Shown piece by piece: positions 1,160-25,424 of a DNA stretch of 32,658 nt. Position 1 is the stretch's first letter; each line of letters begins with the position of its first letter. The stretch covers positions 1 to 32,658 of the forward strand of contig JAFZWG010000073.1 in assembly GCA_017617395.1 (NCBI GenBank), read 5' to 3'. This stretch comes from Lachnospiraceae bacterium. Lineage in GTDB: Bacteria > Bacillota > Clostridia > Lachnospirales > Lachnospiraceae. A program made the translations under genes and the position numbers. A model generated the notes under the pieces. The model was not told the origin of the DNA and searched no databases. It was given only the letters and a program-made list of their open reading frames with translations.

Positions 1160-1633
1160 ATGAATCGGATTCGCAGAGCGGAGCTTCGGGACATCCCGGG
1201 CATCATGAAGCTTTTAGTGCAGGTGGACATGGTCCATCACGTCGGCCGGCCCGACCTCTTCAAGGGGCCCGCGACCAAGTACAACGAGGACGAACTCGCC
1301 GCGATCCTCGCGGACGATAACCGCCCCGTGTTCGTCTGTCTCTCGGAAAATGAGACAGTTGTCGGGCACGCGTTCTGCGCCAAAAAGCAGATTGTCGGCG
1401 ACTCGGTTCTGACCGACATTCGAACGCTTTACATCGACGATATCTGCGTCGACGAGGCCGCCCGCGGGCAGGGCGTCGGGCGCGCGATGTATGAGTATGT
1501 GAAGGATTTTGCGACGCGCGAGGGCTTCTACAACCTCACGCTGAACGTGTGGACGTGCAACCCCGGCGCGATGAAATTTTACGAGGCGATGGGGATGAAG
1601 CCGCAGAAGGTAGGAATGGAAACGATACTTTGA
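1160..1633 (+). CDS. GNAT family N-acetyltransferase
   Basis: A 157-residue GCN5-related acetyltransferase that would move the acetyl group of acetyl-CoA to an amine; the substrate cannot be read from sequence. The acetyl-CoA pyrophosphate loop is ARGQGVGRAM (about residues 101-110), preceded by the beta-4 strand YIDDICVDE and followed by the C-terminal NLTLNVW...AMKFYEAMGM segment typical of the fold. The start codon lies one base after the aroA stop, inside the aggaatgat junction, so translation is probably coupled. Its place between aroA and tyrA is transcriptional; a role in aromatic metabolism is not implied by the protein itself. Confidence 0.9.
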   Translation: MNRIRRAELRDIPGIMKLLVQVDMVHHVGRPDLFKGPATKYNEDELAAILADDNRPVFVCLSENETVVGHAFCAKKQIVGDSVLTDIRTLYIDDICVDEAARGQGVGRAMYEYVKDFATREGFYNLTLNVWTCNPGAMKFYEAMGMKPQKVGMETIL

Positions 1634-1700
1634 TGACAAGGGGACAGTCCCCAATTGTCACCAATGTGTCAGATGACAACTGGGGACTGTCCCTTTGTCA
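1634..1700. repeat. REP-like palindrome, two 27-bp arms
   Basis: Two 27-bp arms (1634-1660 and 1674-1700) are inverted copies with 25 of 27 matches around a 13-bp spacer. Each arm is itself near-palindromic: TGACAA, then GGGGACAGTCCCC, then TTGTCA. The element begins directly after the GNAT stop codon and ends shortly before the tyrA ribosome binding site; a short extra TCCCTTTGTCATC follows. The layout resembles REP/BIME-type intergenic repeats. A related fragment lies at 23476-23503. It could act as an mRNA stabiliser or partial terminator inside the operon. Confidence 0.8.
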
Positions 1701-1726
1701 TCCCTTTGTCATCTGAAGGAGGATAT

Positions 1727-20998: not shown

Positions 20999-22384
20999 AT
21001 GAAGTATGATGTAGTAATAGTCGGCGCAGGGCCGGCGGGAATCTTCACTGCGTACGAGATGATCAAGCGCGGCTCGAAGAAAAAGATATTGATGATCGAA
21101 AAGGGGCAGCCCATCGAAAAGCGCAGCTGCCCGAAGGCGAAGACCGGCCACTGTGTCGGCTGCAAGCCTTGCAATATAACGACCGGCTTCTCGGGAGCGG
21201 GTGCATTTTCCGACGGAAAATTATCCCTCAGCTACGAGGTCGGCGGCGATTTTCCGGAGCTGATCGGCGCGGACGCTGCGCAGGCGCTCATCGACTACAC
21301 GGACTCCGTGTACCTTGAGTTCGGCGCCGACACGCACGTCGAGGGTGTCAGCGAGCCCGACAAGGTCAAGGATATCCGCAGACGCGCCATCGCGGCGGGC
21401 CTGAAGCTTGTCGACTGCCCGATCCGCCACCTCGGCACGGAGAAGGCGCAGGAGCTGTACCAAAAGCTCGAGCATTTTCTGCAGGACCACGGGGTCGAGA
21501 TGATCTTCGGCTGCAGCTGCGAGGACCTCATCATCACGGATGGAGTTTGCAAGGGCGTTGTCATCAACCTGCCCGGCGGCCGCACCGAATACGAGGCCGA
21601 CAGCGTCGTCGTTGCGACCGGTCGCCGCGGCGCCGAGTGGCTTGAGAAGCTCTGCGCGCGCTATGACATTGCGCACAAGCCCGGCACCGTCGACATCGGC
21701 GTTCGCGTCGAGGTTCGCAACGAGATTATGGAGGAGGTCAATTCTGTCCTCTACGAGTCCAAGCTCGTCGGCTATCCCGCGCCCTTCAAAAACAAGGTGC
21801 GCACCTTCTGCCAGAACCCGGGCGGCTTTGTCTCGCAGGAAAATTACGACAACAACCTCGCGGTCGTCAACGGCCACTCCTACAAGGAGCTCAAGAGCAA
21901 CAACACGAATCTCTCGATTTTGTGCTCCCACAACTTCTCGGTGCCGTTCAACAAACCGATCGAGTACGCGCAAAAGGTCGGTGAGCTCACCAACATGCTC
22001 GCCAACGGCCAAATCCTCGTCCAGCGCTACGGCGACATCCTCTCCGGCAAGCGCACCTGGGCCAAGGAACTCGCCCAGTCCAACGTCCGTCCGACCCTTC
22101 CCGACGCCGTTGCCGGCGACATCACGGCCGCCATGCCCTACCGCGCGATGACCAACATCATCAACTTCATCCAGGCTGTCGACATGGTCGTTCCCGGCTT
22201 CGCCAGCTACGAGACTCTCCTCTACTCGCCCGAGCTCAAATTCTACAGCAACAAGGTGAAAATGGAGCCCGACCTCACGACAAATGTAGCCGGCCTCTAC
22301 TGCCTCGGCGACTCCTCCGGCTGGACCCGCGGATTGATGATGGCATCCTCTATGGGCGTCCTGATGGGCCGCAAGCTTGTCTGA
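20999..22384 (+). CDS. FAD-dependent oxidoreductase with a four-cysteine motif (COG2509-like)
   Basis: 461 residues. The N-terminal dinucleotide-binding motif VVIVGAGPAGIFTAYE (5-20) binds FAD, and a second signature GLYCLGDSSGWTRGLMMASSMG near the C-terminus completes the FAD site. Between them is a Cys cluster C44-x7-C52-x2-C55-x2-C58 followed by TTGFSGAGAFSDGK, a mark of this family, possibly binding an Fe-S cluster or zinc. The reaction is unknown. The ribosome binding site is weak (GGGG before TTTTT ATG). The gene stands alone; the hairpin of the repeat at 22534-22585 may end its transcript. Confidence 0.88.
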   Translation: MKYDVVIVGAGPAGIFTAYEMIKRGSKKKILMIEKGQPIEKRSCPKAKTGHCVGCKPCNITTGFSGAGAFSDGKLSLSYEVGGDFPELIGADAAQALIDYTDSVYLEFGADTHVEGVSEPDKVKDIRRRAIAAGLKLVDCPIRHLGTEKAQELYQKLEHFLQDHGVEMIFGCSCEDLIITDGVCKGVVINLPGGRTEYEADSVVVATGRRGAEWLEKLCARYDIAHKPGTVDIGVRVEVRNEIMEEVNSVLYESKLVGYPAPFKNKVRTFCQNPGGFVSQENYDNNLAVVNGHSYKELKSNNTNLSILCSHNFSVPFNKPIEYAQKVGELTNMLANGQILVQRYGDILSGKRTWAKELAQSNVRPTLPDAVAGDITAAMPYRAMTNIINFIQAVDMVVPGFASYETLLYSPELKFYSNKVKMEPDLTTNVAGLYCLGDSSGWTRGLMMASSMGVLMGRKLV

Positions 22385-22464
22385 CGGGGGGCTTCCCATC
22401 GGCGAAGCGCCTTCACAATTGTACAAAAACGGGCGGTGCGGCGCGGATCATTACGCTTGCTATC

Positions 22465-22676
22465 GCAGAATTACACATAGTTCTGTTCGTCAACTGCACG
22501 GGGCATCTAAGCGCCCGCTTCAAACGCATATCAAAAGGCCGCATCTGCGAAACTCGCTTCGCTCAGACATCTTGATGCGGCCTTTATGCATTTTCCCGCG
22601 CGCTAAGATGAGCCTTCTCGCAAGCAAAGCTTGCTCGAGTAGCAATGTTTCCTCACAGAACTATGTGTACTTCTGC
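22465..22676. repeat. 22-bp inverted repeat enclosing element A
   Basis: Bases 22465-22486 and 22655-22676 are inverted copies with 21 of 22 matches (core ACACATAGTTCTGT). They enclose the 103-bp element at 22506. They may be terminal repeats of a small non-autonomous element or a long hairpin. No open frame of note lies inside, and I see no gene in 22385-23036. Confidence 0.75.
22506..22608 (+). repeat. 103-bp structured repeat element, copy A
   Basis: The ends are TCTAAGCGCCCGC and CGCGCGCTAAGA (imperfect inverted repeats). At the centre is a 12-bp perfect stem AAAGGCCGCATC / GATGCGGCCTTT (22534-22545, 22574-22585) around a 28-base loop containing CTCGCTTCGCTCAGACATCT. Copy B at 23626-23728 is the same length, in the opposite orientation, with about 25 of 28 loop bases conserved but a different stem. 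It could also act as the terminator of the gene ending at 22384. Confidence 0.85.
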
Positions 22677-22825
22677 TGCTGCGAGAGAAGGAATCCGCGC
22701 TGCCCCGCCCTTTTGTGCTCCTGAGGCGCTTCGCCGGGCGGGGGCAGCCGTCAGACCGGCTTGCGGGCATTGATGGGAGCGGAAACGAACGGAATGGTTT
22801 GATTGATAAAGGGCGGGGGAATCGA

Positions 22826-22878
22826 CCTCGGCGCTGCCCGCAAAGGGGCGCGCCTCGGCCGGATTGCCTCGTGCGCGG
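22826..22878 (+). repeat. Shared G+C-rich block, copy A
   Basis: CCTCGGCGCTGCCC through GCCTCGTGCGCGG. It matches, inverted, the block at 23384-23432, with both ends identical and a small length difference in the middle. With the 103-bp elements it gives two inverted blocks in the same internal order. Confidence 0.75.
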
Positions 22879-22971
22879 GCATTCACGGCTCGCCACAGGC
22901 CGAATTTCCCAAACGCGCCCTCGGCCATGGGGCGATATGATTGAACGAAACAAAAGAAAGAAAAACATACG

Positions 22972-23001
22972 AAAAACGCCCGCAATTTGCGGGCGTTTTT
23001 T
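22972..23001. terminator. Bidirectional terminator beside the 63-aa membrane protein gene
   Basis: AAAAACGCCCGCAA pairs with TTGCGGGCGTTTTTT: a strong G+C stem with A tract on one side and T tract on the other, so it works in both directions. It lies about 35 bases after the minus-strand stop at 23037. Confidence 0.88.
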
Positions 23002-23036
23002 CGGTTTAGGACTTTATTGATTATGCGCTTTGCAGA

Positions 23037-23228
23037 CTAGATGTTTTCTTCGCGGTCGTCGGCTTTTGCCATAACTAAAAGCAACAGACAACCAAGGCAT
23101 CCCACGCCGATGATCGCCGACGGGGCTGCGATTTTGGTGAAAACGGAAGTGCCGGTAATAAACAAAACAATCTCCACAAGGATAGCAAGGACGAGCGCAG
23201 CGGCTACAAACAGTTTCGCTTTCTTCAT
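23037..23228 (-). CDS. Small membrane protein, 63 aa, unknown function
   Basis: 63 residues with two hydrophobic segments (about 6-26 and 36-53) joined by a short TGTSVFTKIAAPS loop, and a charged C-terminus KADDREENI. The ATG at 23228 is chosen because TAGGAGGT lies just upstream and a good promoter (23249-23278) allows only a very short leader; longer frames to 23600 pass through the promoter and repeats. It has its own terminator. It lies between two inverted repeat blocks. No family is recognised; small two-helix proteins can be toxins, transporter subunits or immunity proteins, but nothing here decides. Confidence 0.75.
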   Translation of the reverse strand: MKKAKLFVAAALVLAILVEIVLFITGTSVFTKIAAPSAIIGVGCLGCLLLLVMAKADDREENI

Positions 23229-23248
23229 AATCCACCTCCTATGGAGGT

Positions 23249-23278
23249 ATTGTAGATAACCACGTCCATGAAAGTCAA
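23249..23278 (-). promoter_or_regulatory. Promoter of the 63-aa membrane protein gene
   Basis: On the minus strand TTGACT (23278-23273), an 18-base spacer and TACAAT (23254-23249). The -10 is only about 20 bases from the ATG, so the leader is very short. ACCTCC just after the -10 can pair with the GGAGGT of the ribosome binding site. Confidence 0.75.
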
Positions 23279-23285
23279 ACACTTG

Positions 23286-23325
23286 TGGATGAACGACACT
23301 ATTTCTTGATGAACAACACCATTTG
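23286..23325. repeat. Two 20-bp direct repeats upstream of the small-protein promoter
   Basis: Units 23286-23305 and 23306-23325 match at 16 of 20 positions (core GATGAAC-ACAC-ATTT). They sit directly upstream of the -35 box, where an activator would bind. Confidence 0.6.
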
Positions 23326-23383
23326 GAAGCAAAAGGAGGCCGCGGGCGCGGATGTAGCCCTTCCCATCCGCGGCGTGGCGGCT

Positions 23384-23432
23384 CCGCGCACGAGGCAACC
23401 GGCCGAGAAGCGCCCCCGGGGCAGCGCCGAGG
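23384..23432 (-). repeat. Shared G+C-rich block, copy B (inverted)
   Basis: Inverted copy of 22826-22878: on the minus strand it reads CCTCGGCGCTGCCC... to GCCTCGTGCGCGG. Together with 23626-23728 it mirrors the arrangement at 22506-22878. Confidence 0.75.
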
Positions 23433-23475
23433 CCGGTTAAAAGTAAAAGAATAACAGCCCCTTTTGCCATCCAAT

Positions 23476-23503
23476 GAGACAAAAGAACTGTCCCCCTTGT
23501 CAC
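23476..23503 (-). repeat. REP-like fragment
   Basis: On the minus strand GTGACAAGGGGGACAGT followed by TCTTTTGTCTC, related to one arm of the palindrome at 1634-1700. Only one arm is present, so it is a remnant. Apart from the repeats listed, 23229-23789 shows no gene. Confidence 0.65.
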
Positions 23504-23595
23504 CCCCGCCGCCAACTGCGCCAACAAAGCGGCTGTAGCCGTGGCATACTTTTGCACGGCGGAAGGCACGAAGGAAATGGCGAAGAAGCATGTGA

Positions 23596-23620
23596 CTCAC
23601 GAAGGCATCGCCTTCGTGAG
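23596..23620. repeat. Perfect 11-bp hairpin next to element B
   Basis: CTCACGAAGGC and GCCTTCGTGAG around ATC. Near element A a different hairpin (CAAGC-AAA-GCTTG, 22621-22633) occupies the matching position, so the flanking hairpin may also keep its structure while changing sequence. Confidence 0.6.
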
Positions 23621-23625
23621 GGCTA

Positions 23626-23728
23626 TCTTAGCGCGCGCAAGAATGAATAAAGGCCGTTCCTAGATGTCTGAGCGAAGCGAGTTTCGACGGAACGGCCTTT
23701 CGATATTCGTTTGAAGCGCGCGCTTAGA
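23626..23728 (-). repeat. 103-bp structured repeat element, copy B
   Basis: Same length and architecture as 22506-22608, inverted. The ends are TCTTAGCGCGCGC and GCGCGCGCTTAGA. The stem is AAAGGCCGTTCC / GGAACGGCCTTT (23649-23660, 23689-23700); compared with copy A the inner four bases differ on both sides while pairing is kept. The loop carries AGATGTCTGAGCGAAGCGAG (20 of its 28 bases). It lies downstream of dacF and may end that transcript. Confidence 0.85.
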
Positions 23729-23789
23729 TTCCCTGAACCTGCGCCTGAGCCATTTCCTTCGAGACTTCCGCCGAGGATGGGTGGGGCGG

Positions 23790-25424
23790 CTACAGCCGCT
23801 TTGTGACCCGGTTCTTGCGGCGGGCGCGGCGGGGCAGGAATACGAAGATCACCAGGATGCAGGGCACGAAGGTTACGAGGAAGATGGCGCCCCCGAGCAG
23901 CCAGGCTTTGGTGCGGACCGGAACCGAGGGAAGGAAGCCGGAAGTTTCGGGCTTTTTCTCGATGACGAGGTCGGAGGCGGGCGTCGGGGTGGGCGGAATC
24001 GGGGACGGCGAAGCGTTGGCCGGATCCGCGGTAGGAATCGGAGAGAGGTTGGCGGAGAGGAGCGAGTTGTCGATCACAACACCGGAACCGCCCTGCGAGG
24101 GAAGCATGTTCGGCAGAATCAGGAAGCGGGGCCAGACGGCCTCAAATTCAGCCTGGGACATGGGAAATTCGGGATTGTTGAAGATGATGGCAGCGTTTCC
24201 TACGCAGCGGTCGTTGTAGAAGTAGGAGACGTGGCCGATCACATTTTCCCCGTGGACGTACTCGGAGGGGATGGAGTAGGAAATGGTCTTCGAGAGGACC
24301 TCGGGCGTGGTGCCGTGAGGGAGGACAGCGTAGGCGGCGGGGTCGATGTAGACGAGGTCGCCGGAGCCGTCATCGAACATGGGGCAGGCTTCGAAGAGGC
24401 CCGTGTAGGAAGCATTTACCGAGCTCTCGACGTTGCGGATGGAGTAGACCTTGTAGTTTTCGAAGACGTAGTTGAGGGCCGTGACGGTGTCGTCGTAGCA
24501 GCTGTCGCCGTTTTTGCAGCCGAGGACGATGGCGACGACGGTCATGCCTTCCTTCTCGGCATAAGTGCAAAGGGCGTAGCCCTCGGACGAGGAGACGCCG
24601 CCGGTCTTGCCGGCGATGGCGTACTCGTAGTTTTTGGTCTTGCGAATGAAGGCGTGCGTCTGCGCGAGCATGCGCGCCTCCTTCAGGTTTGTGGCCGGAA
24701 CCTCGTACCATTTGGAGCTCGCGATCTTGAAGAAGAGCGGGTACTTCATGAGCTCACACGCGAGCAGGCCGAGGTCGTAGGCACAGGAGGACTGTTTCGT
24801 GCCTCCGGTGCCGGTGGCGCTGCGGAATTCGGTGTTGATGCCGCCGAGCTGCTTCATGCGCTCGTTCATCATCGGCAGGAATTTGTCGACCTTGCCGCCG
24901 CCCATCTTCTCACCGAGCGCGTACGCGGTCTCGTCCGCCGAAGCGACGAGCATGGCGTAGAGCGTGTCGAGAACCGAGAGCGTCTCATCCTCGACCAGAC
25001 CGATGCGGGTGACCGAGGAGCCGATGCTGTGGATCGATTTCTTGGAAAATTTGACGGTGTCCGTCATGTCCAGCTTTTCGAGCGCGAGAAGCGCGGTCAT
25101 CAGCTTCGTGAGGCTCATGGGGGCGTAGGAGTCGGCTGCATTTTTCGCATACAAAACCGCGCCGGAGCCGACCTCCATGACGATGGCGGCTTTCGCGCCG
25201 ATGGACGGGCCGCCGCCCAGGATGGACGTCGCGACGCTCGTGTCGGGCTTTTCGTCACCGGTCTCGCCGGCGTTGCCGCTGCCGTCAGTCTCGTCCGCGC
25301 GGAAAATGAGTTCCTTTCCAATGTCGGCGCGAGCAATCCCGGGCATGCCGAACAAGGCGGTCCCCAGAAGAAGGACCGCCAAGGCCGCTACTGTGCGAAT
25401 TCGTTTGCCAAGGAAAAATCTCAC
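23790..25424 (-). CDS. dacF: D-alanyl-D-alanine carboxypeptidase, PBP5/DacF family
   Basis: 544 residues; trims the terminal D-Ala of peptidoglycan stem peptides on the outer side of the membrane. A signal peptide (about 1-33) is followed by the S11 peptidase domain: SLTK with active-site Ser104 and Lys107, KTGG at 273-276, and at the SxN position SAD (162-164, in SADETAYA) where SxN is usual. A beta-rich C-terminal domain, a Pro/Thr linker (about 475-490), one membrane anchor near 515-535 and a basic tail RRARRKNRVTKRL complete it. The start is GTG at 25424, with AGGGAG 6 bases upstream. It is third in an operon after the ABC ATPase and AraD-like genes, 25 bases downstream of the latter. Confidence 0.92.
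   Translation of the reverse strand: MRFFLGKRIRTVAALAVLLLGTALFGMPGIARADIGKELIFRADETDGSGNAGETGDEKPDTSVATSILGGGPSIGAKAAIVMEVGSGAVLYAKNAADSYAPMSLTKLMTALLALEKLDMTDTVKFSKKSIHSIGSSVTRIGLVEDETLSVLDTLYAMLVASADETAYALGEKMGGGKVDKFLPMMNERMKQLGGINTEFRSATGTGGTKQSSCAYDLGLLACELMKYPLFFKIASSKWYEVPATNLKEARMLAQTHAFIRKTKNYEYAIAGKTGGVSSSEGYALCTYAEKEGMTVVAIVLGCKNGDSCYDDTVTALNYVFENYKVYSIRNVESSVNASYTGLFEACPMFDDGSGDLVYIDPAAYAVLPHGTTPEVLSKTISYSIPSEYVHGENVIGHVSYFYNDRCVGNAAIIFNNPEFPMSQAEFEAVWPRFLILPNMLPSQGGSGVVIDNSLLSANLSPIPTADPANASPSPIPPTPTPASDLVIEKKPETSGFLPSVPVRTKAWLLGGAIFLVTFVPCILVIFVFLPRRARRKNRVTKRL

Follow-up and report, generated by a model that had tools for sequence, protein, structure and literature searches.

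Inverted hairpins with a conserved apex in a Lachnospiraceae genome, putative copies of a REP/BIME-like repeat

Results

Two nested hairpins between convergent genes

The window analysed here, 32,658 nt of contig JAFZWG010000073.1 from a Lachnospiraceae bacterium (the host), contains two inverted elements, A (22506-22608) and B (23626-23728), which share a conserved loop on differing but fully paired stems. With moderate confidence we propose that A and B are copies of an undescribed REP/BIME-like, non-autonomous hairpin repeat that is kept for its folded apex strand and is served in trans by a putative factor. The pair had been noticed in a sequence-only reading of the window, an observation that was right, and understated.

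The loop of each element (28 nt in A, 22546-22573; 23661-23688 in B) is enclosed by the arms of the inner stem listed below. Read on the minus strand, the A loop is identical to the B loop at 25 of 28 positions, and the stem arms AAAGGCCGCATC and AAAGGCCGTTCC are each matched fully by the opposite arm; the conserved loop and compensated stem described in the sequence-only reading are thus real. The 103 bp which that reading assigned to each element correspond to the core; the element itself is bigger, A and B each being the core of a larger nested hairpin with a side hairpin beside it. In a repeat search of the window, A and B together appear as inverted 109-nt arms with 84% complementarity. 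The features are as follows (covariance model R1 is described in the next section).

22498..22625, minus strand: core hairpin of element A (covariance model R1, 138.9 bits; fold)
22553..22569, minus strand: apex of A, TGTCTGAGCGAAGCGAG (exact pattern match)
22534..22585, minus strand: inner stem of A, arms 22534-22545 and 22574-22585 (sequence)
22617..22639, minus strand: side hairpin of A (sequence and fold)
22424..22717, no strand assigned: outer arms around A, 22424-22486 with 22655-22717 (inverted repeat I2, 76% complementary)
23610..23736, plus strand: core hairpin of element B (covariance model R1, 139.0 bits; fold)
23665..23681, plus strand: apex of B, TGTCTGAGCGAAGCGAG (exact pattern match)
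23649..23700, plus strand: inner stem of B, arms 23649-23660 and 23689-23700 (sequence)
23596..23620, plus strand: side hairpin of B (sequence and fold)
23557..23773, no strand assigned: outer arms around B, 23557-23593 with 23737-23773 (inverted repeat I3, 81% complementary)

Folding beats shuffled sequences in all four strands of A and B. For B on the plus strand the DNA fold has a z value of -6.06, with 0 of 200 shuffles as good, and A on the plus strand, the weakest of the four, is equalled by 1 of 200. The apex strand is predicted to be more stable than its complement both as DNA (A, -34.2 vs -28.2; B, -35.0 vs -32.4 kcal/mol) and as RNA (A, -55.7 vs -47.3; B, -62.2 vs -50.8 kcal/mol). 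The genes that converge on the pair encode a 461-aa FAD protein (end at 22384, plus strand) and a D-Ala-D-Ala carboxypeptidase (end at 23790, minus strand). The apex-bearing, better-folding strand of A and B is antisense to both, which speaks against the earlier suggestion that the elements act at the 3' ends of the two flanking mRNAs.

The interval between A and B also holds a 63-aa hydrophobic ORF (23038-23229, minus strand) with a Shine-Dalgarno-like stretch and no Pfam match, which is partly absent from the sister genome G003. A second repeat (GCACGAGGCAACCGGCC-like / CGCCTCGGCCGGATTGCCTCGTGC, recognised by eye) lies there as inverted copies at about 22818-22900 and at 23335-23442. A copy of this GCACGAGGCAACCGGCC-like repeat was also seen by eye within the hairpin pair of another host contig (C22, locus L321), and because of this recurrence the A/B pair may be composite. 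Inverted repeats of the GGGGACAGTCCCC type occur in the window (1632-1702 and 23478-23512) and in L321, and are similar to the GGGG[AT][CG]A[CG] flanking repeats reported for TIRYT transposases in the accessible text of PMC6006769.

Further copies in the host and its genus

At up to two mismatches the apex is found seven times in the host: five times in a hairpin, once as a half copy and once where there is no hairpin. Covariance model R1 was built from eight copies, of which four come from host contigs C33, C46 and C74, one from host contig C76 and three from relatives. It recovers at least 10 copies in the host, where A and B standing alone would have spoken against the sequence-only reading, and it matches in 13 of 22 genus genomes, the richest with at least 17 copies; these model counts are lower bounds, 150 candidates having been scored in several genomes, the host included. 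The exact apex pattern is present in 5 of 61 relatives (counting the host), and within the genus the apex is more variable (e.g. TGTTCGAAGCGAAGCGAG). In 6 of the 53 distinct genus members a longer hairpin takes the place of the cap. In one of these, the copy on host contig C30 (L322, 1016-1207), two copies of GCGGAGCG enclose about 60 nt of another hairpin, and this insert between the apex halves has no second occurrence in the host.

Covariation of the stem and preference for the apex strand

In the MAFFT alignment A1, which was not fitted to structure, both partners have changed in 16 of 40 pairs, and 93.4% of cells are paired, against 7.3 pairs and 84.0% of cells in shuffles, none of 500 reaching the observed values. 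Compensation of this kind below a conserved loop is unlike a simple terminator, as had been argued from the sequence of A and B. The one unexceptional measure of the five is the number of further pair types (27 vs 24.4 in shuffles, 70 of 500 being as high). Among the 66 model-aligned matches (53 distinct genus members), 35 of 40 pairs have changed on both sides and 89.7% of cells are paired, in an alignment that leans to the covariance model; the corresponding shuffles give 23.5 pairs and 71.7% of cells, and slid structures 31-50% of cells. The pairing expected to persist across copies is thus found with the model, and some stem pairs are frequently broken (columns 42-183 of the genus alignment in 24 of 52 sequences).

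In a rank test among all 75 non-redundant loci, the best partner of the left arm was its own right arm in 61, the 14 failures including L115, L084 and L055. A swapped-arm control, past the 1st percentile of which 37 of 72 loci lie, is weak because families share arm types. Pairing at matched offsets reaches up to 71%, with background columns near 25%, and at orthologous Marinobacter sites the stems are altered and the pairing kept.

When the apex was masked in hairpins with arms less than 80% identical, the apex strand was the more stable in DNA in 111 of 135 cases (two ties). After removal of repeated contexts, stem mismatches favour the apex strand by 106 to 69 (p 0.006), while G-T vs A-C alone gives a weak 60 to 42 (p 0.09); in the G073/G076 group the latter comparison shows no difference (31 to 29), even before that removal. 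The conserved purine-rich internal loops may contribute to the strand difference. It is well supported that the folded apex strand is under selection.

Such data can also be read as those of a structured RNA: transcription of the apex strand would yield a small RNA of its own or an element of a UTR, with the apex and the internal loops serving as a protein-binding site or forming a functional domain. Structured RNAs typically show covariation together with conserved loops, the apex strand has many G-T pairs (103 vs 39 A-C in the fitted alignment) and RNA folding too favours this strand (92 of 137 under the same masking and arm limit). We nevertheless regard an RNA as rather unlikely. No Rfam 15 family matches at gathering score in the window and 17 further loci, and the region 22300-23900 has a single promoter-like site, on the minus strand at 23278-23249, vs 0.6 expected; the gene context considered below bears on the same question.

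An apex shared across phyla

A scan of GTDB genomes for TGTYTGAGCGNAGCGAG followed by TT returned at least 117 stretches, about 2 being expected by chance (2 x 257 Gb / 4^19). Carriers among the matches listed are Marinobacter, Variovorax, Ralstonia, Noviherbaspirillum, Nitrospira, Sphingobacterium, Parabacteroides, Bacteroides, Lachnospiraceae and others, and in Proteobacteria, Bacteroidetes, Nitrospira and Firmicutes the apex tips hairpins with unrelated stems. In 20 carrier genomes, picked for holding a copy, it occurs 2 to 133 times each; the reversed pattern, taken as control, occurs 0 times in 19 of them and five times in one. Model R1 matches 17 of 20 picked loci of other genomes at E 0.001 or better (not L052, L062 and L057), aided by the fixed apex.

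On the apex strand the sequence is organised as T-GA-GC-GNA-GC-GA-G, that is, a GNA triloop on a stem of two pairs, with tandem GA on either side. The oligonucleotide d(GCGNAGC) is an unusually stable mini-hairpin. Single-mismatch apices of genome G073 deviate at N in 33 of 44 cases, at position 4 in five, at position 10 in four and at positions 9 and 13 in one each, as counted in the first 100 of 149 places, the copies being non-independent.

The absence of any functional selection would offer another account: palindromes amplified with other repeats would be kept paired by template switching, one arm being copied onto the other. Quasi-palindrome correction is a known mutational process, and some of the hairpins (L137, L009) are very long and almost perfect. 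Template switching would, however, wipe out unpaired internal loops, which are conserved here, and it leaves unexplained a 17-nt tip common to several phyla and the freedom of N alone, so that we consider this account improbable.

One 17-nt tip is common to loci of Marinobacter, Nitrospira, Bacteroides and Lachnospiraceae, while the stems of the different groups have no sequence in common. Such a tip on unrelated stems, reaching 133 copies in one of the 20 carriers, suggests that a single recognition rule and a partner are at work. We tentatively suggest a cross-phylum class of hairpins that would be read by the structure of the tip, not by the stem, the GNA-triloop cap (GCGNAGC between tandem GA) possibly being recognised by one putative and widespread enzyme for single-strand hairpins. 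Such a cap could top hairpins of unrelated kinds, among them the attC-like sites of Vibrio.

A scan of IMG/VR for the apex gave eight stretches, not all of them hairpins as judged by eye; a 34-mer containing the apex had no match in GenBank phages and matched 12 weak plasmid records. A full-text literature search, with subscription papers mostly outside its reach, found no publication that prints the apex, and the three papers matched by the 12-mer GAGCGAAGCGAG had unrelated titles, by which alone they were judged.

Some carriers show additional structures. In L137 and L009 the apex caps nearly perfect palindromes (with arms of about 45-50 bp in L137 and of more than 100 in L009), which look as if flanking DNA had been duplicated, inverted, around the cap. 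By eye, nine loci from Proteobacteria and Nitrospira (L033, L104, L097, L113, L114, L039, L102, L049 and L077) have a second hairpin of the CTTTCTTTTGGCGAAGCAAAAGAAAG type 3' of the main one on the apex strand, often with a matching pyrimidine run before it; a small third hairpin also lies 3' of the main one. The pyrimidine run and the CTTTCTTTTGGCGAAGCAAAAGAAAG-type hairpin could possibly form an intrastrand triplex.

Arrangement, gene context and turnover

A and B form a close divergent (-/+) pair, the common order. Among the loci of the apex + TT scan, which were not selected for pairs, 13 of 18 close opposite-strand pairs are -/+, the five +/- pairs lying in L052, L072, L097, L117 and L126. 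The -/+ order is found in 15 of 15 pairs in G073 and 4 of 4 in G076 (both among the matches listed), in 9 of 9 in G081-G085, and in 9 of 9 close opposite-strand pairs detected in the genus by the covariance model, together with one same-strand pair; an earlier count of 37 vs 4 came from a set that included stretches picked for holding pairs. Flanking gene directions around the pairs show no preference (9, 9, 8, 7); the genes around 33 pairs are convergent in 8, divergent in 7 and tandem in 18.

Single copies were counted with those without a neighbour on both sides left out. Of 131, 52 lie inside crude ORFs taken as spurious, six are far from genes and 73 were used. The right-hand gene points to the element in 50 of the 73 (p 0.002) and the left-hand gene in 36; single copies thus tend to have a gene ending beside them on one side (50 of 73), and their apex lies antisense to this gene.

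This adjacency, and the position of A and B just past gene 3' ends, would fit a role as ordinary bidirectional terminators for the two converging genes, a role which we nonetheless consider very improbable. A terminator requires no fixed 17-nt loop, the T runs after the arms of A and B are three bases long, and the 33 pairs occur between convergent, divergent and tandem genes alike. A terminator scan called no site at A or B and two on the minus strand elsewhere (23000-22972 and 23108-23096), the scan admitting loops of 3-8 only, so that a 28-nt loop is uncallable. For a structured RNA, the 36 of 73 left-hand genes that read into the apex strand give no sign of co-transcription, and the divergent pairs have no obvious reason. 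We tentatively favour DNA over RNA, given the divergent pairs, a spread like that of REPs and this lack of a co-transcription sign. In G082, whose ori and ter were located roughly from 20 sampled stretches, the apex strand has no leading/lagging bias (7 of 13, one copy ambiguous).

At the window site, 18 of the 20 genus genomes having the carboxypeptidase gene lack an apex in the 1,500 nt downstream of it when up to three mismatches are allowed, a comparison that a diverged apex may escape and in which some alignments ended within that gene. In the sister genome G003, B is present, whereas at A nothing remains but the outermost hairpin around a short interior; at another site the host has 67 bp and G003 352 bp with an extra hairpin. 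Elements are gained or lost between the sister genomes.

Search for a partner gene

Proteins encoded near the at least 117 apex loci were grouped by single linkage, and no shared neighbour gene emerged: the largest cluster comprises 14 loci, its longest member being an ABC transporter ATPase, the next seven, and no other neighbour is recurrent. An autonomous unit between the hairpins was likewise rejected, nine G073/G076 stretches holding ordinary-looking chromosomal ORFs by eye. The Y1 transposase (PF01797) is present in 11 of 21 carrier genomes and absent from the host (85% complete) and nine others. Its linkage to the apex is not general, since only 3 of 23 Y1 loci (L200-L222), read over 2.2-3.4 kb, contain it: L211, where Y1 lies between a pair, L215 and L216. 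The integron integrase (TIGR02249) is above cut-off in 5 of 21 carriers, and not in the host nor in 15 others.

Discussion

The REP/BIME-like repeat that we propose would be a long hairpin built from stacked stems together with conserved internal loops, with TGTYTGAGCGNAGCGAG as its cap. It would act as a folded single strand, most likely of single-stranded DNA, its GCGNAGC cap forming a stable mini-hairpin recognised by a putative trans-acting hairpin-binding or -processing protein. Recognition by that protein may spread or keep the repeats, by analogy with the RAYT transposase for REP/REPIN. The proposal is weakened by the failure of the searches to turn up a partner, by the even spread of the apex over leading and lagging strands in G082, by the lack of an established target duplication, by the weak G-T vs A-C difference and by the 14 of 75 loci that fail the rank test. 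The stem would need only to pair, and its sequence could drift, whereas the cap and the internal loops would be read and would stay.

As far as the accessible text of PMC4666352 goes, the TM-ECO intrastrand triplex repeats of Escherichia coli and relatives are widespread, non-autonomous and intergenic, sometimes occur as inverted pairs and lack a gene, traits shared by the present elements. On the same text they differ in being a short triplex motif of fixed purine/pyrimidine sequence, lacking a long covarying stem; the E. coli triplex motif was considered and dropped. With MITEs the elements share repetition and lack of autonomy. They differ in that the stem sequence is not conserved; no cognate transposase or target duplication was identified, at filled and empty sites that are not clean. 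Pairs in G073 are, by eye, bounded by inverted GGTACGC.

Integron attC sites are long imperfect hairpins in which structure is more important than sequence and the tip is the variable part. The apex elements are also long imperfect hairpins, with the difference that their tip is near-fixed and that the integron integrase search cited above was negative in the host and 15 other carriers. In two Vibrio loci (L076, L132) the apex was seen by eye in the variable tip of attC-looking sites.

REPs are described, in the accessible text of PMC6006769, as 20-40 bp long with a GT[AG]G tetranucleotide at the foot, and on that text and the accessible part of PMC12306157 the present elements are far longer. 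The feet of A and B, ATCTTAGCG and its partner, have no GT[AG]G by eye. Here the tip is conserved rather than the stem, and the Y1 transposase is missing in the host and the nine other carriers mentioned. The likeness to REP, BIME and REPIN lies in elements that are intergenic, multicopy hairpins, occur as inverted pairs and carry no gene of their own.
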